NCBI RefSeq assembly: GCF_003363715.1 | Contig: NZ_QREV01000003.1 | Coordinates: 1-64,000, forward strand | From: Parabacteroides acidifaciens | GTDB lineage: Bacteria; Bacteroidota; Bacteroidia; Bacteroidales; Tannerellaceae | Direction: 5' to 3' | Length of the DNA: 64,000 nt | In this document: positions 1,267 through 49,791 of the stretch, in pieces | Layout of the letters: each line of letters begins with the position of its first letter | Position numbering within the stretch: the stretch's first letter is position 1 | Translations under genes and position numbers: made by a program | Notes under the pieces: model-generated | Database searches by the model: none | What the model saw: only the letters and a program-made list of their open reading frames with translations | Told to the model about the DNA's origin: nothing

Positions 1267-1470
1267 TGACGAAAAAAAACGTACGTTTAAATTCGTCACA
1301 AATTTACGCATACTTTTTAAACCTGCAATTCTTTTCTCTAATATTTTTTCATTTTCTATGTTGTTTCTTATCAATTAGATAGCTTATCAAGGACAAAAAT
1401 ACCTCTTTTTGCAACAAACACCAAAAACGCCTCAAAAAATGACGAATTTAAACGTACGTATTTGTAGTCA
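1267..1470. promoter_or_regulatory. invertible promoter region upstream of the 1179-residue surface protein
   Basis: Two palindromic sites flank about 140 bases. The left site (1267-1298) runs TGACGAA...TTCGTCA around AAACGTACGTTT; the right site (1440-1470) runs TGACGAA...GTAGTCA around ACGTACGT. Their inner arms are a perfect 20-bp inverted repeat: 1279-1298 is the reverse complement of 1440-1459. The core centres are 173 bp apart. This resembles the B. fragilis capsule promoters inverted by the serine recombinase Mpi, whose sites I recall as ARACGTWCGT; AAACGTACGT fits that. The enclosed segment holds a promoter directed leftward, away from the gene at 1550. Inversion would place that -7 box near 1337-1344, facing the gene. 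No recombinase is encoded in this window. Confidence 0.8.
1394..1425 (-). promoter_or_regulatory. promoter inside the invertible segment, pointing away from the gene
   Basis: On the minus strand a -33 TTTG (CAAA at 1422-1425) is followed after exactly 20 bases by the -7 box TATTTTTG (CAAAAATA at 1394-1401). Both elements and the spacer match the Bacteroidetes sigma consensus. As assembled, it cannot drive the downstream surface-protein gene. Confidence 0.7.
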
Positions 1471-1549: not shown

Positions 1550-4500
1550 ATGAACAAAAGATTTTCTACTCTTTTGGCTGCCGTAATGGTGGTAGGTAGT
1601 TCTTTCTCGGCTCAAGCAAACGGAGATGAAGTTACTTTGAAAGAAAGCTTGGGAAAGTATTATCAAATGAAAGTTGACGGCAATTTCGTCGTTATTGGAC
1701 ATGGCGAGACGCGTGACTCTTTGGCTGTTTGGGCTGCTGACGAGATTAAAACACTTGAAGATGTAAACGAGACATTGTGGCGTGTTGAATTTACTCCGGT
1801 TAAGGCTGCAAACGGACAGATTGCCGAATATGAAATGCGCTTGTTTAACAAGGTTGGTAACCGCCAGTTGATTTTAAGCACTGCTCTTGCACAACATGGG
1901 AAAACATTCTACAAATCTCCGGCTGCAGTCTTGGGGGCTGAAGGTTTGGATAAATGGACTGTGACAAAAGAAGAATACGATGAATTGTCAACGGTTGCAG
2001 ACCAGGATTTCCGTTTTATTAAATATATCTATTCTAAAACAGCTGACAAAACGACTAAATATAAGTTAGCTATTAAGGGGGATGTAATCAAACTGCAATC
2101 GATCGTTTCTGATGAGCAAAAAGGTAGTGAACCTACATTTACTCATGACTTTCCTGTAGAGAGTGATGTTGAGACATTTGCCCCGACAGCTACAGCCGTA
2201 GATGAAAATGGAGTTTACTCTTTTGATGCAAAAGAACTGAACGCTAAAGGCAATGATGGTTTTACCCTTTCTTTCTCAAAGGATGTCGTAAATAATAAAT
2301 ATGCGAATCCGTTCTCTGCTTATACTTTACATGCTACAACAAAGCCTATCTATTCTGCTGCTGTATATAAAGGTGACTATGCGAAGGCTTTAGCTGATGT
2401 AAAAGAAGCTTACGAACAGTTGGATGATTTGAAAGCGGCTTTGAAAGGTTATTCAGATGGCGTAAATGAAGCGATTACTTATTTGACAACAACTGGTAAT
2501 ACGGGTGCTGCAGCTGCTAAAGCCGGATCATTGATTCAGAATCAGTCTGATTTGAATTTGGCTGGCGAAGAAGTGGATGCTTGTCTTGTTATCTTGTCTA
2601 CTGGCAGTGAGATCAAAACTCTTATTGGAACGGCTAAAAATGCTATGAATAAAGTTGCAGCTATAGAGATTGCTGCTGGAACTAAATTGGCTACTACCAA
2701 TGCTGACCTGAAAGCATATCAGACTGCCAATAAAGCAGTTTTGGATGCTATTGATGATCTGATTGATGACACCAAAGATGCTGTTGATGCTGTAGATGAA
2801 ATTATGCAGGCTTGGATGGTTCCGGCTAATATTGATGCTACGATCGGGTTTGATGATACTGAAAGCGAACTGACTGCTTTAACAACTTTCAATACAGCTA
2901 ATTTTGCAACAAGTGAAAACACTATTGGTGCATTAATTTCTACTCTGGCAAGCAAAGCTGTTGTTGGTGAAAGAGAAGCTGCTGCAACTTTAGTTGAAGA
3001 TTATTATGCATTGGCAATCGCCGATTCAACAATCAAAGAAAAGCAGGCTTATCTGGCTGTAGACACGAACTATGTTGCCAACAAAGAAAAATATCTGACT
3101 TTTACTACAGATACATTGATTCCGGCAACAGTAAAAGTTGGAAGTGAAGACGTAGATGTTTTGGTCGCTCCATTGAATAAAAATATCAACAAATATGCAT
3201 TCGCATTGTCTGCAGTTATTGATAATATCGCAACAGGTGACTCTATCCTGATTGATACTTATGCACCTAATGTAGGTGATAATGGTAATTTTACCGATGT
3301 AAAAGATGGTTTTGTGACATATGAGGATGAAGCACGTGTTGTAATCCGTACTTTGGGTAATGGCCGTGAAATTTCTGTGACAACAGATATTACTACTCCT
3401 GACGAAGCAGTTTATAATACAAACATTGCATTTGCAATGCCTCCGTATGCAGACTTTGAAGAAGGTGAAGTATTCTTTGTTAAGAGCATGAAGGATGCAG
3501 ATAAGGGTGGTTTCCGTGTTGTGGCTTATGACGGTACATTCAATACTACATTAGTAAAAGAAAGTAAAGTGTCGGCATCTGTTCCTGCGACTCAGTGGTT
3601 CGTTAAGAAAGCAAATGCTGCTACTCATACTTATACAATCGCTAACCGTGATAAGGATCAGAAGCTTGTAAATGCAGGAAGTGTATATGTCGTAGATGCT
3701 GAAAAACGTATTTATACAACTGCTGCCAAAGATACATTCCAGGTTGTGGAAATCGCAGACTTGAAAGAAGATACTCATCTGGGTTACAAATATCTGACTA
3801 ATGAAGAGCAGGTATTGAAATCATTTGTACTGACAGCTAAGAACTATGCTAATCCGGAAGCTTACTATCTGACAGTCGGTAAGGATTCTGCTGTTGTGGT
3901 TACTCCGAATGCAGACGAAGCAATGTCTTTGGTTGTTGCCACTCCGACAACTACAGATTCAAAATTGAATGACGAATCTATCCTGACTCGTGCATTCCAG
4001 TTGGTAACAAAAGATAAGAAGGAAACTTATTATCTGACTTCTACCGACGGTATGTTGTATATCACGACAAAGGCAAACACCAATACTTTGAAGTTCAGAA
4101 GAGTAAACGATAATGCTGACGAATATGAAGTTTTGGTTAATGCAAACGAAGGCAAGTTGTCAATCAACCAGGATGGTGAAGGCGTGAAGGTTGCAATGGG
4201 TGAAGCTACTTCTTATGTATTCAATCTGGCAGAAGAAGTGACAGAAATCTATAAGAACTTTGAAACTGAAACGATCAAGAATGTGACCATTTCTTTGGAT
4301 GGCGATGAGGCTTCTAAGGTAACAGCTGTTAAGCCGTTTGCTATTATCAAACGCACAGGTTTGGAACTGAAGGCTGCTGCTACAGATAACGATTTTGTTC
4401 TGGGATTGGATACTGCTTATATCAATCGTGCAAATAACTATCGCTATGCTTACTATATCACTAAACCGATCGATGTAGAAAAAGTAGGTTCCTTCGACGA

Positions 4501-5089
4501 AAAAGCATATATGGTAAGTTATAACGATTCTATCGATTATAGCAGTGATACAGTTAAGTATACTCAAGACAATCTGACTCGTATCGGATTTGTTCATGCG
4601 AGCCGTATTGAAGCATTCAATAATGATTCTTTGGCTATCAGCAAGGTGGCTCCTGATGAAAGTGATACGATCAATGTTGCCAGCGCACAGGGTATCACTC
4701 CTGCAACTTGGGCATTCGCAATTGAAAGCGACGGTGTTTATCGCATTGAAACAAAACAGGATGTTAATGGATGCAAGTATGTTAGCTACCTGAATGGAAT
4801 CTTGGTACTGGGTAACAAGGAACAGGCACAATTATTCAATGTAAACGATACAGATTTGACTCCGACAGACAACGAGGTAATCTCAACTTCAGAAGTGAAA
4901 GTAATCGCTGCTAACGGCGGTGTTCAGATCATCGGTGCACAGGGTAAGAAAGTTGTTATCACTAACATCCTTGGCCAGACAATCGCCAACACAGTTATTT
5001 CTTCTGACAACGCAACAATCGCTGCACCTGCCAGTGTAGTCGTAGTTGCTATTGAAGGTGAAGAAGCTGTAAAAGCAATCGTAAAATAA
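1550..5089 (+). CDS. large secreted/surface protein with C-terminal DUF6383-like domain
   Basis: This 1179-residue protein starts with a clear signal peptide (about residues 1-23, cleavage after SAQA). It continues with beta-rich repeats broken by an alanine-rich, probably helical stretch near residues 268-490. It ends with a small beta domain (about 1114-1179) containing GKKVVITNILGQ and terminating AVKAIVK. That tail is nearly identical to the tail of the protein at 46663 and resembles type IX secretion sorting domains; I associate it with DUF6383 of Parabacteroides. I infer export to the cell surface. The function of the body is unknown. The gene sits behind an invertible promoter that points the wrong way here, so I predict phase-variable expression, currently off. 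The start is chosen because the signal peptide follows directly. Confidence 0.85.
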   Translation: MNKRFSTLLAAVMVVGSSFSAQANGDEVTLKESLGKYYQMKVDGNFVVIGHGETRDSLAVWAADEIKTLEDVNETLWRVEFTPVKAANGQIAEYEMRLFNKVGNRQLILSTALAQHGKTFYKSPAAVLGAEGLDKWTVTKEEYDELSTVADQDFRFIKYIYSKTADKTTKYKLAIKGDVIKLQSIVSDEQKGSEPTFTHDFPVESDVETFAPTATAVDENGVYSFDAKELNAKGNDGFTLSFSKDVVNNKYANPFSAYTLHATTKPIYSAAVYKGDYAKALADVKEAYEQLDDLKAALKGYSDGVNEAITYLTTTGNTGAAAAKAGSLIQNQSDLNLAGEEVDACLVILSTGSEIKTLIGTAKNAMNKVAAIEIAAGTKLATTNADLKAYQTANKAVLDAIDDLIDDTKDAVDAVDEIMQAWMVPANIDATIGFDDTESELTALTTFNTANFATSENTIGALISTLASKAVVGEREAAATLVEDYYALAIADSTIKEKQAYLAVDTNYVANKEKYLTFTTDTLIPATVKVGSEDVDVLVAPLNKNINKYAFALSAVIDNIATGDSILIDTYAPNVGDNGNFTDVKDGFVTYEDEARVVIRTLGNGREISVTTDITTPDEAVYNTNIAFAMPPYADFEEGEVFFVKSMKDADKGGFRVVAYDGTFNTTLVKESKVSASVPATQWFVKKANAATHTYTIANRDKDQKLVNAGSVYVVDAEKRIYTTAAKDTFQVVEIADLKEDTHLGYKYLTNEEQVLKSFVLTAKNYANPEAYYLTVGKDSAVVVTPNADEAMSLVVATPTTTDSKLNDESILTRAFQLVTKDKKETYYLTSTDGMLYITTKANTNTLKFRRVNDNADEYEVLVNANEGKLSINQDGEGVKVAMGEATSYVFNLAEEVTEIYKNFETETIKNVTISLDGDEASKVTAVKPFAIIKRTGLELKAAATDNDFVLGLDTAYINRANNYRYAYYITKPIDVEKVGSFDEKAYMVSYNDSIDYSSDTVKYTQDNLTRIGFVHASRIEAFNNDSLAISKVAPDESDTINVASAQGITPATWAFAIESDGVYRIETKQDVNGCKYVSYLNGILVLGNKEQAQLFNVNDTDLTPTDNEVISTSEVKVIAANGGVQIIGAQGKKVVITNILGQTIANTVISSDNATIAAPASVVVVAIEGEEAVKAIVK

Positions 5090-46350: not shown

Positions 46351-46566
46351 TGACTAAAAAAAACGATCGTTTTAATTCGTCATTTTTACTGCACAAAAAT
46401 ACGCATTCCTTTTTAAACCACAACTCTTTTCAATAAAAAATTTCTTACCTCTATATTCTTTCTTATCAATTAGATAGCAATTTTAGTACGAAAATACGCC
46501 TTTTCAATACGAAGTCCAAAGATAGCCGAAAAAAATGACTAAAAAAAACGATCGTATTCGTAGTCA
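46351..46566. promoter_or_regulatory. invertible promoter region upstream of the 1042-residue surface protein
   Basis: The left site (46351-46382) is TGACTAAAAAAAACGATCGT followed by TTTAATTCGTCA; the right site (46536-46566) is TGACTAAAAAAAACGATCGT followed by ATTCGTAGTCA. Core centres are 185 bp apart. The inner arms match as inverted repeats at 16 of 20 positions, including the whole ACGATCGTTTT core; the outer left arm is a direct repeat of the right inner arm. Site length, spacing, the shared right-hand GTAGTCAAAATACAA and an internal TTTCTTATCAATTAGATAGC match the locus at 1267-1470. The enclosed promoter points away from the gene. Confidence 0.75.
46489..46520 (-). promoter_or_regulatory. 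promoter inside the second invertible segment, pointing away from the gene
   Basis: On the minus strand a -33 TTTG (CAAA at 46517-46520) precedes, by exactly 20 bases, the -7-like box TATTTTCG (46489-46496), one base off TAnnTTTG. Position and spacing are the same as in the first locus. Inversion would place the -7 box near 46422-46429, reading toward the gene. Confidence 0.6.
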
Positions 46567-46662
46567 AAATACAAGAATTAACAAACGTACCTTATAATAG
46601 CGCGTACGTATATATAGAACTGACATTTCAATAACTGTATTATTAATATTAAAATTTAGATT

Positions 46663-49600
46663 ATGAACAGAAAGATTTCTACTCTTTTGACAGCGGGCTT
46701 GTTAGCTACAAGTGCGTTGTGTAGTAGTGCTTGGGCACAAGGTGCAGATCCGAAACCCATCACAATTAATGGAATTGAATTAAAGGCTGTCGATGATCCT
46801 GCTAAAGACAAAGCATGGGCAACAGGTCCTTATTTTGTTATTGCTGATGTGGATAACGATGGTGAAGCTTCAGAGAATGACATTTTGCTGAAAGTTGTAG
46901 CTACAGACGAAGGTGAGACTTTGACTTATTCTGGTGTGAAATTAGTAGCTGGCGACCAAACATTAGATTTGGATGAGACTGCTTGGAACTTTAATGAAGA
47001 TGCTCAGGTAAATGCTCTTGGTGAACCTGAATATCTGTATTCATTGCAGAGCATAGGTACAGGTAAGTTTTTGACTGCCGCTAAGAACGGTGCAATCAAA
47101 ACTTTGGCAGCCGAAAGTACACATGATGCAACTAAAAGTCAGTATGCTCTTTTTACTACTAAGGATAATGACAAATCCACTCAGTTTGCGCAGAATGGTA
47201 ATTTGTTCCTTTATGTAGGGGAAGCTGTAACAAATGCTCTTAATATAACAGATGGGACAATTTCTTCTGTTGTGGGTAGTGAAGCAACAAGCAAGCTTAT
47301 CCTTTGCAAACTTAAAACAAAGACATTGGATAACCTCGAAGTTGCAGCCTTGAACGACGTAATGGGTGGTGAAGGTTTCAACCTGGATTTCACTTCCGGT
47401 AACAAGTATCCTTGGAAGAACGATTCTTTGACGGGTCTTAATCTGAAGGCTTTCTATGTTGACGCTCCTGGTATCGACTTGGGCAACAGCATGGCTATTC
47501 CTGCCGGTGTTTATTTGGCAACTGCTTATCCGGAAGAATTGAACGGAACAAACGTTAAAATTGCTAATGCAGAATTGTTTAATCAATGTACATTCCTGGC
47601 AATCGATCCGAAAGGCAATTATGATATCAACAAGGCTGACCGCGCTGCTGGTATTGGCTACGAATTGAAAACTGTACAAGGTTCTGAAATGAACTTCTTC
47701 GCAGGACTTCCTGCTTCAGATAACTATTCTGCAGGCGATGAAGTTTTCGTTGGTAATGCTTGTTTCTCTATCGAAGTGCCTGATCCAATGACAGCTCCGG
47801 AAACTTATAACATTAAGGTTGCCAATATGCATGTGTTTGTTTCTGCCAACAAAAATCCGACAGAAAAGCATGAAGCTAAAAATGGTTATATCGGTTTGGT
47901 TACAGACCAGTTAGTAAACTACTTGGTAACAAATACAAGCGGTTTGAACTTCGCAACAACCAATTCTACTCTTATGGATGGTGACGATCTGGCAACATTG
48001 TTGCAGAAAGCTGATGCTCCTTCTATCTACACAATCCAGTTTGTAAGCGGTGAGAAGAAAGAAAATGAATCGGAATACTTGCAGTATCTGACTGCTATTA
48101 AAGGTGCAAGTGCTTTCGATTTGGCTTCTACGGTAGAATACAACGAAGCTGACCCGATGTATCAGTTTGTTGTTACTGCTATCGACAAGACTAACAAGAC
48201 GATCACATTCACAAACCGTCAGACTAAAACAGATTTGACAGTTTCTCTGTATGAAAATGCAGAAGGCGTTTACACTGTATATCCTGCTGCTACAACTAAT
48301 GTATATGTAGAATATGTAGACACTGATGATAAGAACGAAGAAGTAAAGTTCGAAGCTGTTGATCTGGCTAACACAAAGATCGTCCTGACTCCGTATACTG
48401 TAGAAGATAAATTCGCTACATTCGTAAACAGAACAGATGCTATGGGCTTGGTTCAGTTCGAATTGGCTAAGAACAGCGTTTCTGGTACTGCTTTCTACTT
48501 AGGTGGAACAAAGGATGATGACGGCAAACTTCAGGAAGATGAGATCCTGGCTTATGTTGATGCTGACGATATGACTCAGTTCGAGTTGGTTAAGAGTGAA
48601 AAACCGGTTAATGTATTGAATAAATACATCTATCTGAAAGATACTCGTATCCTGACTTCTACTGCAAAAGATACAGTTGCTTACTATACGTATGCTGTAA
48701 AAGCATTTGATGCAGAGATCGATAATTACTATCTGACTTATACAACTAATGGTAGTATTACGTATAAGTTAGCAGAGAAGAATTCACTTGCAGCTGCTGA
48801 TAAATTCATCATCAAAGAAAACATGGATGGTTCTATCTCTTTGATTAAGGATGCTTCTAATGCTCTTTCAACATATGGTGTAAACTATGCCGAATCTGCA
48901 GACCCGAAGGAAAACGAAGAGGCTGCTTGGGCTGCTAAAGCAAACTATGACCTGGCTGCTAAGATCAGCACAAGCCTGAAGACTTTCATGGTAGAAGAAA
49001 CTCCGGCTGTCAGCCTGGAAGCTGTTCCGCAGCACATCTCTATCGAAGTAGCTCGTGGCGGTTTCATGACAATGGATGAAAACAAGGATGCACGCCTGGC
49101 TATCACAAGCGAAGCTGGTGAAGACTTGACATTCTGGGTTGACACTGTTCATTCAGATCGCAACATCCCTTCATTCTATATCATCAAGGGTGGTAACTTC
49201 TTGTATAACTCAACAGACTCTGCTACATATTATGCAGCTCGCAAGAACTACCGTTTCAATATGGAAAATCAGGCCGATGGCGCAGCTAAACTGATCTTCA
49301 AAGCCGGTGAACTGGTTTCTTCCGATACTTTGAGCACTACGGTTGACGGCAAGCAGGTATTGGTTGCTGAAAAAGACAATGCTCCGAAGAAGATCAAAGG
49401 CAACTTGGCTAAGTTCCAGTATCAGATCATTCTGGATGAAACAGGAGGCGACGAATATGTAATCCGTCAGGGTGGCCAGTATGTTAGCCAGTATAACAAC
49501 TACTTCTATATGAATGCAGACAAGAAGAAAGCCGTTCGCTTCCTTATCGAATCTCAATCTGCTCCTACAGCTAACGAAGGTGTAGAAGTATCAGAAGTAA

Positions 49601-49791
49601 AAGTTATCGCTGGTAACGGTAATGTACAGATCGCTGGTGCTGCCGGCAAGAAAGTTGTTATCAGCAACATTTTGGGCCAGGTAGTAGCTAACACTGTTAT
49701 CTCTTCTGACAACGCAACGATCGCAGCTCCTGCTGGTGTAGTAGTTGTAGCTGTTGAAGGTGAAGCAGCTGTAAAAGCTATCGTTAAGTAA
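46663..49791 (+). CDS. second large secreted/surface protein with DUF6383-like tail
   Basis: This 1042-residue protein has a signal peptide (about residues 1-27, cleavage after AWAQ or nearby) and a long beta-rich body with many Asp, Asn and Thr residues. Its C-terminal domain (about 974-1042) reads EVSEVKVIAGNGNVQIAG, then GKKVVISNILGQ and ends AVKAIVK. The tail is nearly identical to that of the protein at 1550, while the bodies differ. Both have the same 5' start (MN-K/R-K/R-x-STLL). Export and surface display are inferred from the signal peptide and tail. Expression is probably phase-variable through the invertible promoter, which is in the non-productive orientation here. Confidence 0.85.
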   Translation: MNRKISTLLTAGLLATSALCSSAWAQGADPKPITINGIELKAVDDPAKDKAWATGPYFVIADVDNDGEASENDILLKVVATDEGETLTYSGVKLVAGDQTLDLDETAWNFNEDAQVNALGEPEYLYSLQSIGTGKFLTAAKNGAIKTLAAESTHDATKSQYALFTTKDNDKSTQFAQNGNLFLYVGEAVTNALNITDGTISSVVGSEATSKLILCKLKTKTLDNLEVAALNDVMGGEGFNLDFTSGNKYPWKNDSLTGLNLKAFYVDAPGIDLGNSMAIPAGVYLATAYPEELNGTNVKIANAELFNQCTFLAIDPKGNYDINKADRAAGIGYELKTVQGSEMNFFAGLPASDNYSAGDEVFVGNACFSIEVPDPMTAPETYNIKVANMHVFVSANKNPTEKHEAKNGYIGLVTDQLVNYLVTNTSGLNFATTNSTLMDGDDLATLLQKADAPSIYTIQFVSGEKKENESEYLQYLTAIKGASAFDLASTVEYNEADPMYQFVVTAIDKTNKTITFTNRQTKTDLTVSLYENAEGVYTVYPAATTNVYVEYVDTDDKNEEVKFEAVDLANTKIVLTPYTVEDKFATFVNRTDAMGLVQFELAKNSVSGTAFYLGGTKDDDGKLQEDEILAYVDADDMTQFELVKSEKPVNVLNKYIYLKDTRILTSTAKDTVAYYTYAVKAFDAEIDNYYLTYTTNGSITYKLAEKNSLAAADKFIIKENMDGSISLIKDASNALSTYGVNYAESADPKENEEAAWAAKANYDLAAKISTSLKTFMVEETPAVSLEAVPQHISIEVARGGFMTMDENKDARLAITSEAGEDLTFWVDTVHSDRNIPSFYIIKGGNFLYNSTDSATYYAARKNYRFNMENQADGAAKLIFKAGELVSSDTLSTTVDGKQVLVAEKDNAPKKIKGNLAKFQYQIILDETGGDEYVIRQGGQYVSQYNNYFYMNADKKKAVRFLIESQSAPTANEGVEVSEVKVIAGNGNVQIAGAAGKKVVISNILGQVVANTVISSDNATIAAPAGVVVVAVEGEAAVKAIVK

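Follow-up and report, generated by a model that had tools for sequence, protein, structure and literature searches.

Does the pair of palindromes in front of a large exported protein of Parabacteroides acidifaciens enclose a promoter that can be inverted, and in which state was the locus assembled? The window, the whole 64,000-nucleotide stretch that was analysed, consists of bases 1-64000 of contig C68 in a source genome of 5.10 Mb and 144 contigs (contigs are given below as C with a number). We put a probability of about 90% on the reading that the locus is a phase-variation switch in which Mpi, encoded on contig C35, inverts 1283-1455, and that the DUF6383 protein behind it is OFF as assembled. 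The predicted features of the locus are as follows.

1267-1298, no strand: left recombination site, a 32-bp near-palindrome with sequence TGACGAAAAAAAACGTACGTTTAAATTCGTCA; core ACGTACGT at 1279-1286
1283-1455, no strand: invertible segment, from the site positions, with crossover assumed mid-core
1299-1328, minus strand: family-conserved promoter TTGC-N18-TAAATTTG, from a 32-segment alignment; leftward, i.e. OFF; adjoins the left site
1367-1383, no strand: dyad CTTATCAATTAGATAGC (GCTATCTAATTGATAAG in the promoter direction), conserved in the family
1394-1425, minus strand: TTTG-N20-TATTTTTG match of the original prediction; leftward; not conserved as such in the family
1440-1471, no strand: right, gene-proximal recombination site, sequence TGACGAATTTAAACGTACGTATTTGTAGTCAA; core ACGTACGT at 1452-1459; outer half degenerate
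1550-5089, plus strand: 1179-aa surface protein behind the switch, with a signal-peptide-like start (by eye) and a C-terminal DUF6383
4862-5083, plus strand: DUF6383 domain, a possible type 9 secretion sorting tail

The two sites had been predicted to carry perfect 20-bp inverted inner arms, and these were confirmed at 1279-1298 and 1440-1459 (24 nt at 96%); the enclosed stretch, put at about 140 bases, measured 141 bp between the arms, and the spacing of 173 bp between the ACGTACGT cores was reproduced exactly. This was the sole perfect 20-mer inverted repeat with copies at most 600 bp apart in the 64-kb window. Copies of the arm 20-mer with up to three mismatches numbered 31 in the source genome, compared with 0 for the reversed control. 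Placing the crossover at the core centre follows from serine recombinases in general. The sites presumably resemble the Mpi site consensus of Bacteroides fragilis.

We examined promoter placement in an alignment of 32 segments, 12 from the source genome and 20 from genomes G013, G014 and G021, all turned promoter-forward. The exact TTTG-N20-TATTTTTG promoter of the original prediction was present, but it lies on the minus strand (1425 to 1394) and is directed away from the open reading frame at 1550-5089. It was also the only exact match to this pattern upstream of the 21 DUF6383 family genes of the source genome; counted by eye, TATTTTTG stood at this position in 1 of the 32 segments and TTTTCGTAC in most others. 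What the alignment showed as conserved was a promoter that lies at the segment's inner edge and runs up to the recombination site; its final bases were TATTTTTG in 28 rows and TAAATTTG in four (counted by eye). Because the TATTTTTG of the 1394-1425 match is rare while the edge promoter is conserved, the match is the less likely functional promoter, and the alignment points to the conserved element at 1299-1328 as probably the functional one. Arithmetic from the core positions places the inverted edge promoter on the plus strand at 1410-1439, some 110 bases ahead of the ATG. Since the edge promoter and the 1394-1425 match both point left, the assembled state is OFF for 1550-5089. The earlier interpretation as an Mpi-like invertible promoter was therefore upheld, with two amendments: the OFF state had gone unstated, and the functional promoter is probably the one at 1299-1328.

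Evidence for inversion came from other members of the genus. Locus L243 of genome G013 and locus L252 of genome G014 have common flanks on both sides and encode proteins that are 64% identical, yet their segments lie in opposite orientations (L243 ON, L252 OFF). Flipping L243 between its cores in silico raised the alignment score from 957 to 1197.5, whereas six other G013/G014 pairs used as controls (proteins 31-98% identical, some not strict orthologues) all lost score when flipped. The assembled sequences show both orientations of this single homologous locus, one in each of two species of the genus other than that of the window. Across G013, G014 and G021, 15 of 20 loci were OFF and 5 of 20 ON, the count covering 20 of the 36 DUF6383 matches among those listed (9 of 13 in G013, 9 of 14 in G014 and 2 of 9 in G021). 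Two of the ON loci, L243 and L260 (left core with one mismatch), had sites on both sides; the other three, L244, L257 and L261, had no recognisable pair and, by eye, a site-like remnant beside the promoter. For the window we infer that its own copy, whose sole known orientation is OFF, flips as well.

The target claimed for the switch, a 1179-residue protein, is a real open reading frame (1550-5089) with DUF6383 at its end, and an NCBIfam search with this protein returned no match. The source genome contained 28 DUF6383 matches, of which 21 were strong. Upstream of these 21 genes, 11 had a complete site pair, four had one site near a contig end, two had only 57 bp before the contig ended and four had no site, so that at least one site preceded 15 of 21. 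All 11 complete pairs were OFF in the segment alignment, and low switching activity is possible for this reason. The window itself contains a second member of the set:

46351-46382, no strand: left site of the second switch, core ACGATCGT
46462-46478, no strand: dyad of the second switch
46536-46567, no strand: right site of the second switch, core ACGATCGT; outer half degenerate
46663-49791, plus strand: 1042-aa DUF6383 protein behind the second switch, OFF

A genome-wide search for further paired sites, proposed together with the original prediction, found 15 complete pairs, and 11 more sites stood alone close to contig ends; eight extra single matches with two mismatches were treated as background (9 matches came from the reversed control). 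Four complete pairs are outside the DUF6383 family: on C2 ahead of a polysaccharide-type gene, on C64 between SusC-like and DnaK genes, on C138 ahead of a giant surface-type protein, and on C79 close to a 264-aa protein, these names coming from reading the translations without a family search. Close to switch sites, C79 and C102 each encode a protein of 264-265 aa with the shared ending RPGIL (L149:3851-4645 and L113:83-880, respectively); next after the C102 one comes a 921-aa protein that matches the T9SS tail.

As a general rule, a serine recombinase joins only sites that have the same two-base centre. In all 15 complete pairs of the source genome the two-base core centres agreed in inverted register (8 TA, 4 AT, 3 TT/AA); random pairing would give such agreement with a probability of 4.4e-6, a value that assumes independent loci, whereas the switches are related. 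Contig ends also fell at these sites: at least 12 of 288 lay no more than 75 bp from a core, with 0.35 expected (positions entered by hand), and some of them coincided with the core. Contigs ending at sites were C60, C67, C73, C74, C78, C80, C93, C102, C105 and C118. Such ends are expected from mixed orientations or from repeats common to the switches, and we did not take them to prove that inversion had occurred in the culture that was sequenced, as near-identical promoters of different loci (C60, C80, C118) would also break the assembly.

The search for an Mpi-like serine recombinase, likewise proposed earlier, found a 207-aa protein on C35 that scored 321.9 bits against NF009949 (cut-off 272). 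It aligned with solved structures, and its relatives in the PDB include DNA invertases and resolvases. Five resolvase-family genes were found in the source genome, on C35, C5, C134 and C123 (two). The Mpi profile scan took in the four small serine recombinases and left out the fifth, a C123 protein with a 674-aa frame; the C5, C134 and smaller C123 proteins scored 187.1, 184.6 and 92.8 bits, all below the cut-off. Residues R7, V8, S9, D11, K12 and Q13 were invariant in 13 aligned Mpi sequences (that of the source genome and 12 relatives). The Mpi proteins of G002, G007 and G030, genomes of the same genus, were identical to ones in three named Parabacteroides records (207/207, 211/211 and 212/212 residues). 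We infer that the C35 Mpi acts on the window sites.

Of 59 genomes, 21 contained matches to the site pattern, and 20 of these 21 belong to the genus. Every genus genome with at least five site matches (14, the source genome included) also had an Mpi relative at 67% identity or more (in G003 over residues 1-156 only). In 10 genus genomes no Mpi relative reached 60%; nine of these had no site and G004 had four site matches. Five genomes with relatives at 72-79% (G007, G017, G029, G030 and G032) had one to four site matches, and the pattern had no match in six with relatives at 60-75% (G005, G008, G009, G015, G026 and G034). The pattern was built from the source genome, and distance confounds this co-occurrence count.

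In the mechanism that we propose, the Mpi-family invertase from C35 would bind the two inverted sites in trans, and recombination at the matched TA centre of the ACGTACGT cores would invert 1283-1455. In the assembled orientation the promoter, read from 1328 to 1299 on the minus strand, would fire away from the gene, leaving 1550-5089 OFF; after inversion, the predicted start of transcription would fall within the right site or close to it, some 105 nt ahead of the start codon, turning the gene ON. The locus would be one of at least 11 complete switches (15 counting those cut by contig ends) over about 21 DUF6383 proteins, which are probably exported, by a putative type 9 route, and could provide the population with a variable coat.

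Another recombinase might recognise the sites, either an Mpi paralogue from C5 or C134 or a tyrosine recombinase, a proposal that conflicts with ours on the enzyme only. The genome does encode the two further Mpi-like small serine recombinases, and passages of PMC8400631 tie the capsule switches of P. distasonis to tyrosine recombinases. However, both paralogues lack a serine at the position of Mpi S9 (by eye; C5 has one a place later), and a serine invertase, by the general rule, is what cores paired by the same two-base centre would suggest. The inverted repeat of the P. distasonis CPS switch given in excerpts of PMC12118408, GCTACTYRGNRAGTAGC, is also a different sequence, and we regard a different enzyme as improbable. 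We give a similarly small chance to a relic, that is, a segment inherited from active switches whose copy in the window is now fixed OFF. The OFF state of the assembly and of all 11 complete pairs would agree with fixation, as would the existence of relatives without a recognisable pair (C74:28509, L244, L257 and L261), but the inner arms and the cores of this copy are both perfect, the open reading frame at 1550-5089 is intact, and the pair-less relatives that were found are ON, not OFF.

Repeats of this kind might also form a transcription-factor operator or a terminator pair with no inversion at all, each site being itself near-palindromic. Against this, the homologous segment occurs in opposite orientations with its breakpoints at the cores, and no terminator-like site was found in 900-1600; the idea is disfavoured for the family and appears very improbable for this locus. 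Inversion of 1283-1455 by the C35 Mpi is the reading that we retain.

A second element recurs in these segments. The 17-bp dyad GCTATCTnATTGATAAG, with at most two mismatches in its regular positions, was present in 32 of 32 aligned segments, pair-less ones included. With a related pattern, also at up to two mismatches, 12 of 20 matches in the source genome fell in the 12 readable family segments (reversed control, 3). G016 stands further off within the genus, and 8 of its 11 site matches had a dyad 87-88 bases away. No dyad with up to two mismatches was found at the C2, C64, C79 and C138 switches. A role as recombination enhancer is less likely because the dyad occurs in copies without a pair (C74:28509, L244, L257 and L261) and is absent from these four complete non-DUF6383 pairs, single-site segments at contig ends lying outside the test. 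We read it as a putative site for a transcription regulator.

A table on P. gingivalis in PMC9722745 lists DUF6383 as a putative T9SS targeting domain. The T9SS component SprA was present in the source genome (2993.7 bits). The T9SS tail TIGR04183 matched at six weaker DUF6383 places and in 0 of the 21 strong DUF6383 proteins, that of 1550-5089 included. Export of DUF6383 proteins by T9SS is plausible. An O-glycosylation motif occurred 11 times compared with a shuffle mean of 8.2, and 179 of 1000 shuffles reached 11; as the motif is not enriched, it was dropped as support for a glycoprotein.

The DUF6383 gene C74:28509, which has no sites, had its promoter ON. Together with L244, L257 and L261 it makes up a set of ON promoters without a recognisable site pair, one found per genome in four genomes, and each has, by eye, an additional ATGTACGCGTGTACAT-like palindrome upstream. 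A single default-coat orthologue across species is unsupported: the four pair-less ON proteins are 44-87% identical to each other, and that of the source genome is as close to C60:98 (55%) as to the L244, L257 and L261 proteins. Two further DUF6383 genes, L096 and L097 (C112:106120 and C115:20583), have very similar long leaders and no sites.

Surface-protein switches of this type are already known in Parabacteroides, and the window locus is, in our reading, an additional, real switch. Mpi and finA are, we assume, two names for one gene. The Mpi invertible capsule promoters of B. fragilis were reportedly described by Coyne et al. in 2003. Mpi is treated in passages of PMC5903667, and the invertase finA in passages of PMC3090145. 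The present system resembles that of B. fragilis in having a match to the NCBIfam Mpi equivalog, a serine invertase in trans and many scattered promoter segments; a promoter flanked by inverted repeats ahead of a surface gene, an invertase encoded in trans and scattered centre-matched sites were all found here. It differs in its targets: most are DUF6383 proteins, and one polysaccharide locus (C2) is among the rest.

In the genus of the window, excerpts of PMC8400631 describe inversion-based phase variation of an S-layer glycoprotein for P. distasonis. The work of Fletcher et al. 2007 on phase-variable S-layer glycoproteins of P. distasonis is cited in PMC8400631, PMC9409006 and PMC10773633, and DgpA and DgpC are named in a table of PMC2943079. 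The Dgp system, as far as these excerpts and titles describe it, shares with ours the genus, a surface-protein family (by title) and phase variation by DNA inversion; here too, by description, large surface proteins form a multigene family whose members stand behind invertible promoters. BT1927 of B. thetaiotaomicron, a surface lipoprotein in the passages of PMC12118408 and PMC12578637, is likewise an S-layer protein behind an invertible promoter, and PMC12578637 has it inactive in most wild-type cells. Its inverted repeat, CCGTTACCTABVRAGTAAC, and the site-specific integrases nearby (excerpts of PMC12118408) contrast with the other sites and the distant serine invertase found here; the same excerpts state a tyrosine-type integrase for CPS loci whose inverted repeats are nearly identical to that of BT1927. 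Through this analysis a surface-protein switch of a gut genus has precise coordinates, a promoter and a call of its state as OFF, and at least 15 of the 21 related coat proteins of the genome stand behind such sites. Less expected were the family dyad, the matched core centres in 15 of 15 pairs and the Mpi paralogues without the catalytic serine.

The paralogues of the source genome lie at L004:475-1101 (C5) and L005:1330-1935, minus strand (C134). A serine at the S9 position was missing from 19 of 21 aligned paralogues (those of the source genome and the L262-L278 set) in 11 genomes of the genus, the residue being replaced by tyrosine, glycine, threonine or alanine (ungapped register, by eye); most tyrosine-type paralogues have a serine one place later, and L279 and the C123 protein retain the serine at the S9 position. 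A literature search, with coverage that left out most subscription papers, found no paper on inactive serine-recombinase paralogues in Bacteroidales.

More tentatively, these elements may form a two-layer coat regulon of one Mpi, a dyad regulator and the serine-less paralogues, an idea whose three parts we consider possible but doubtful as a whole. One Mpi might serve the TA, AT and TT/AA classes, with recombination only within a class. A regulator might bind dyads of the GCTATC-N5-GATAAG type in DUF6383 promoters of the genus and co-regulate the ON members, with pair-less members perhaps staying ON as a default coat. The serine-less Mpi paralogues, kept across the genus, may modulate inversion or transcription. 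With the dyad, the constantly ON members and the paralogues lacking the serine, it would become testable how a single coat is maintained with many others in reserve.

On the other side of the switch, about 300 bases downstream of the OFF-oriented promoter, the minus strand at 301-964 encodes a likely toxin-antitoxin pair. It consists of a nucleotidyltransferase-like protein at 671-964 (by reading) and a HepT-like protein at 301-678 (Pfam PF01934), and by eye has its own TATATTTG box.
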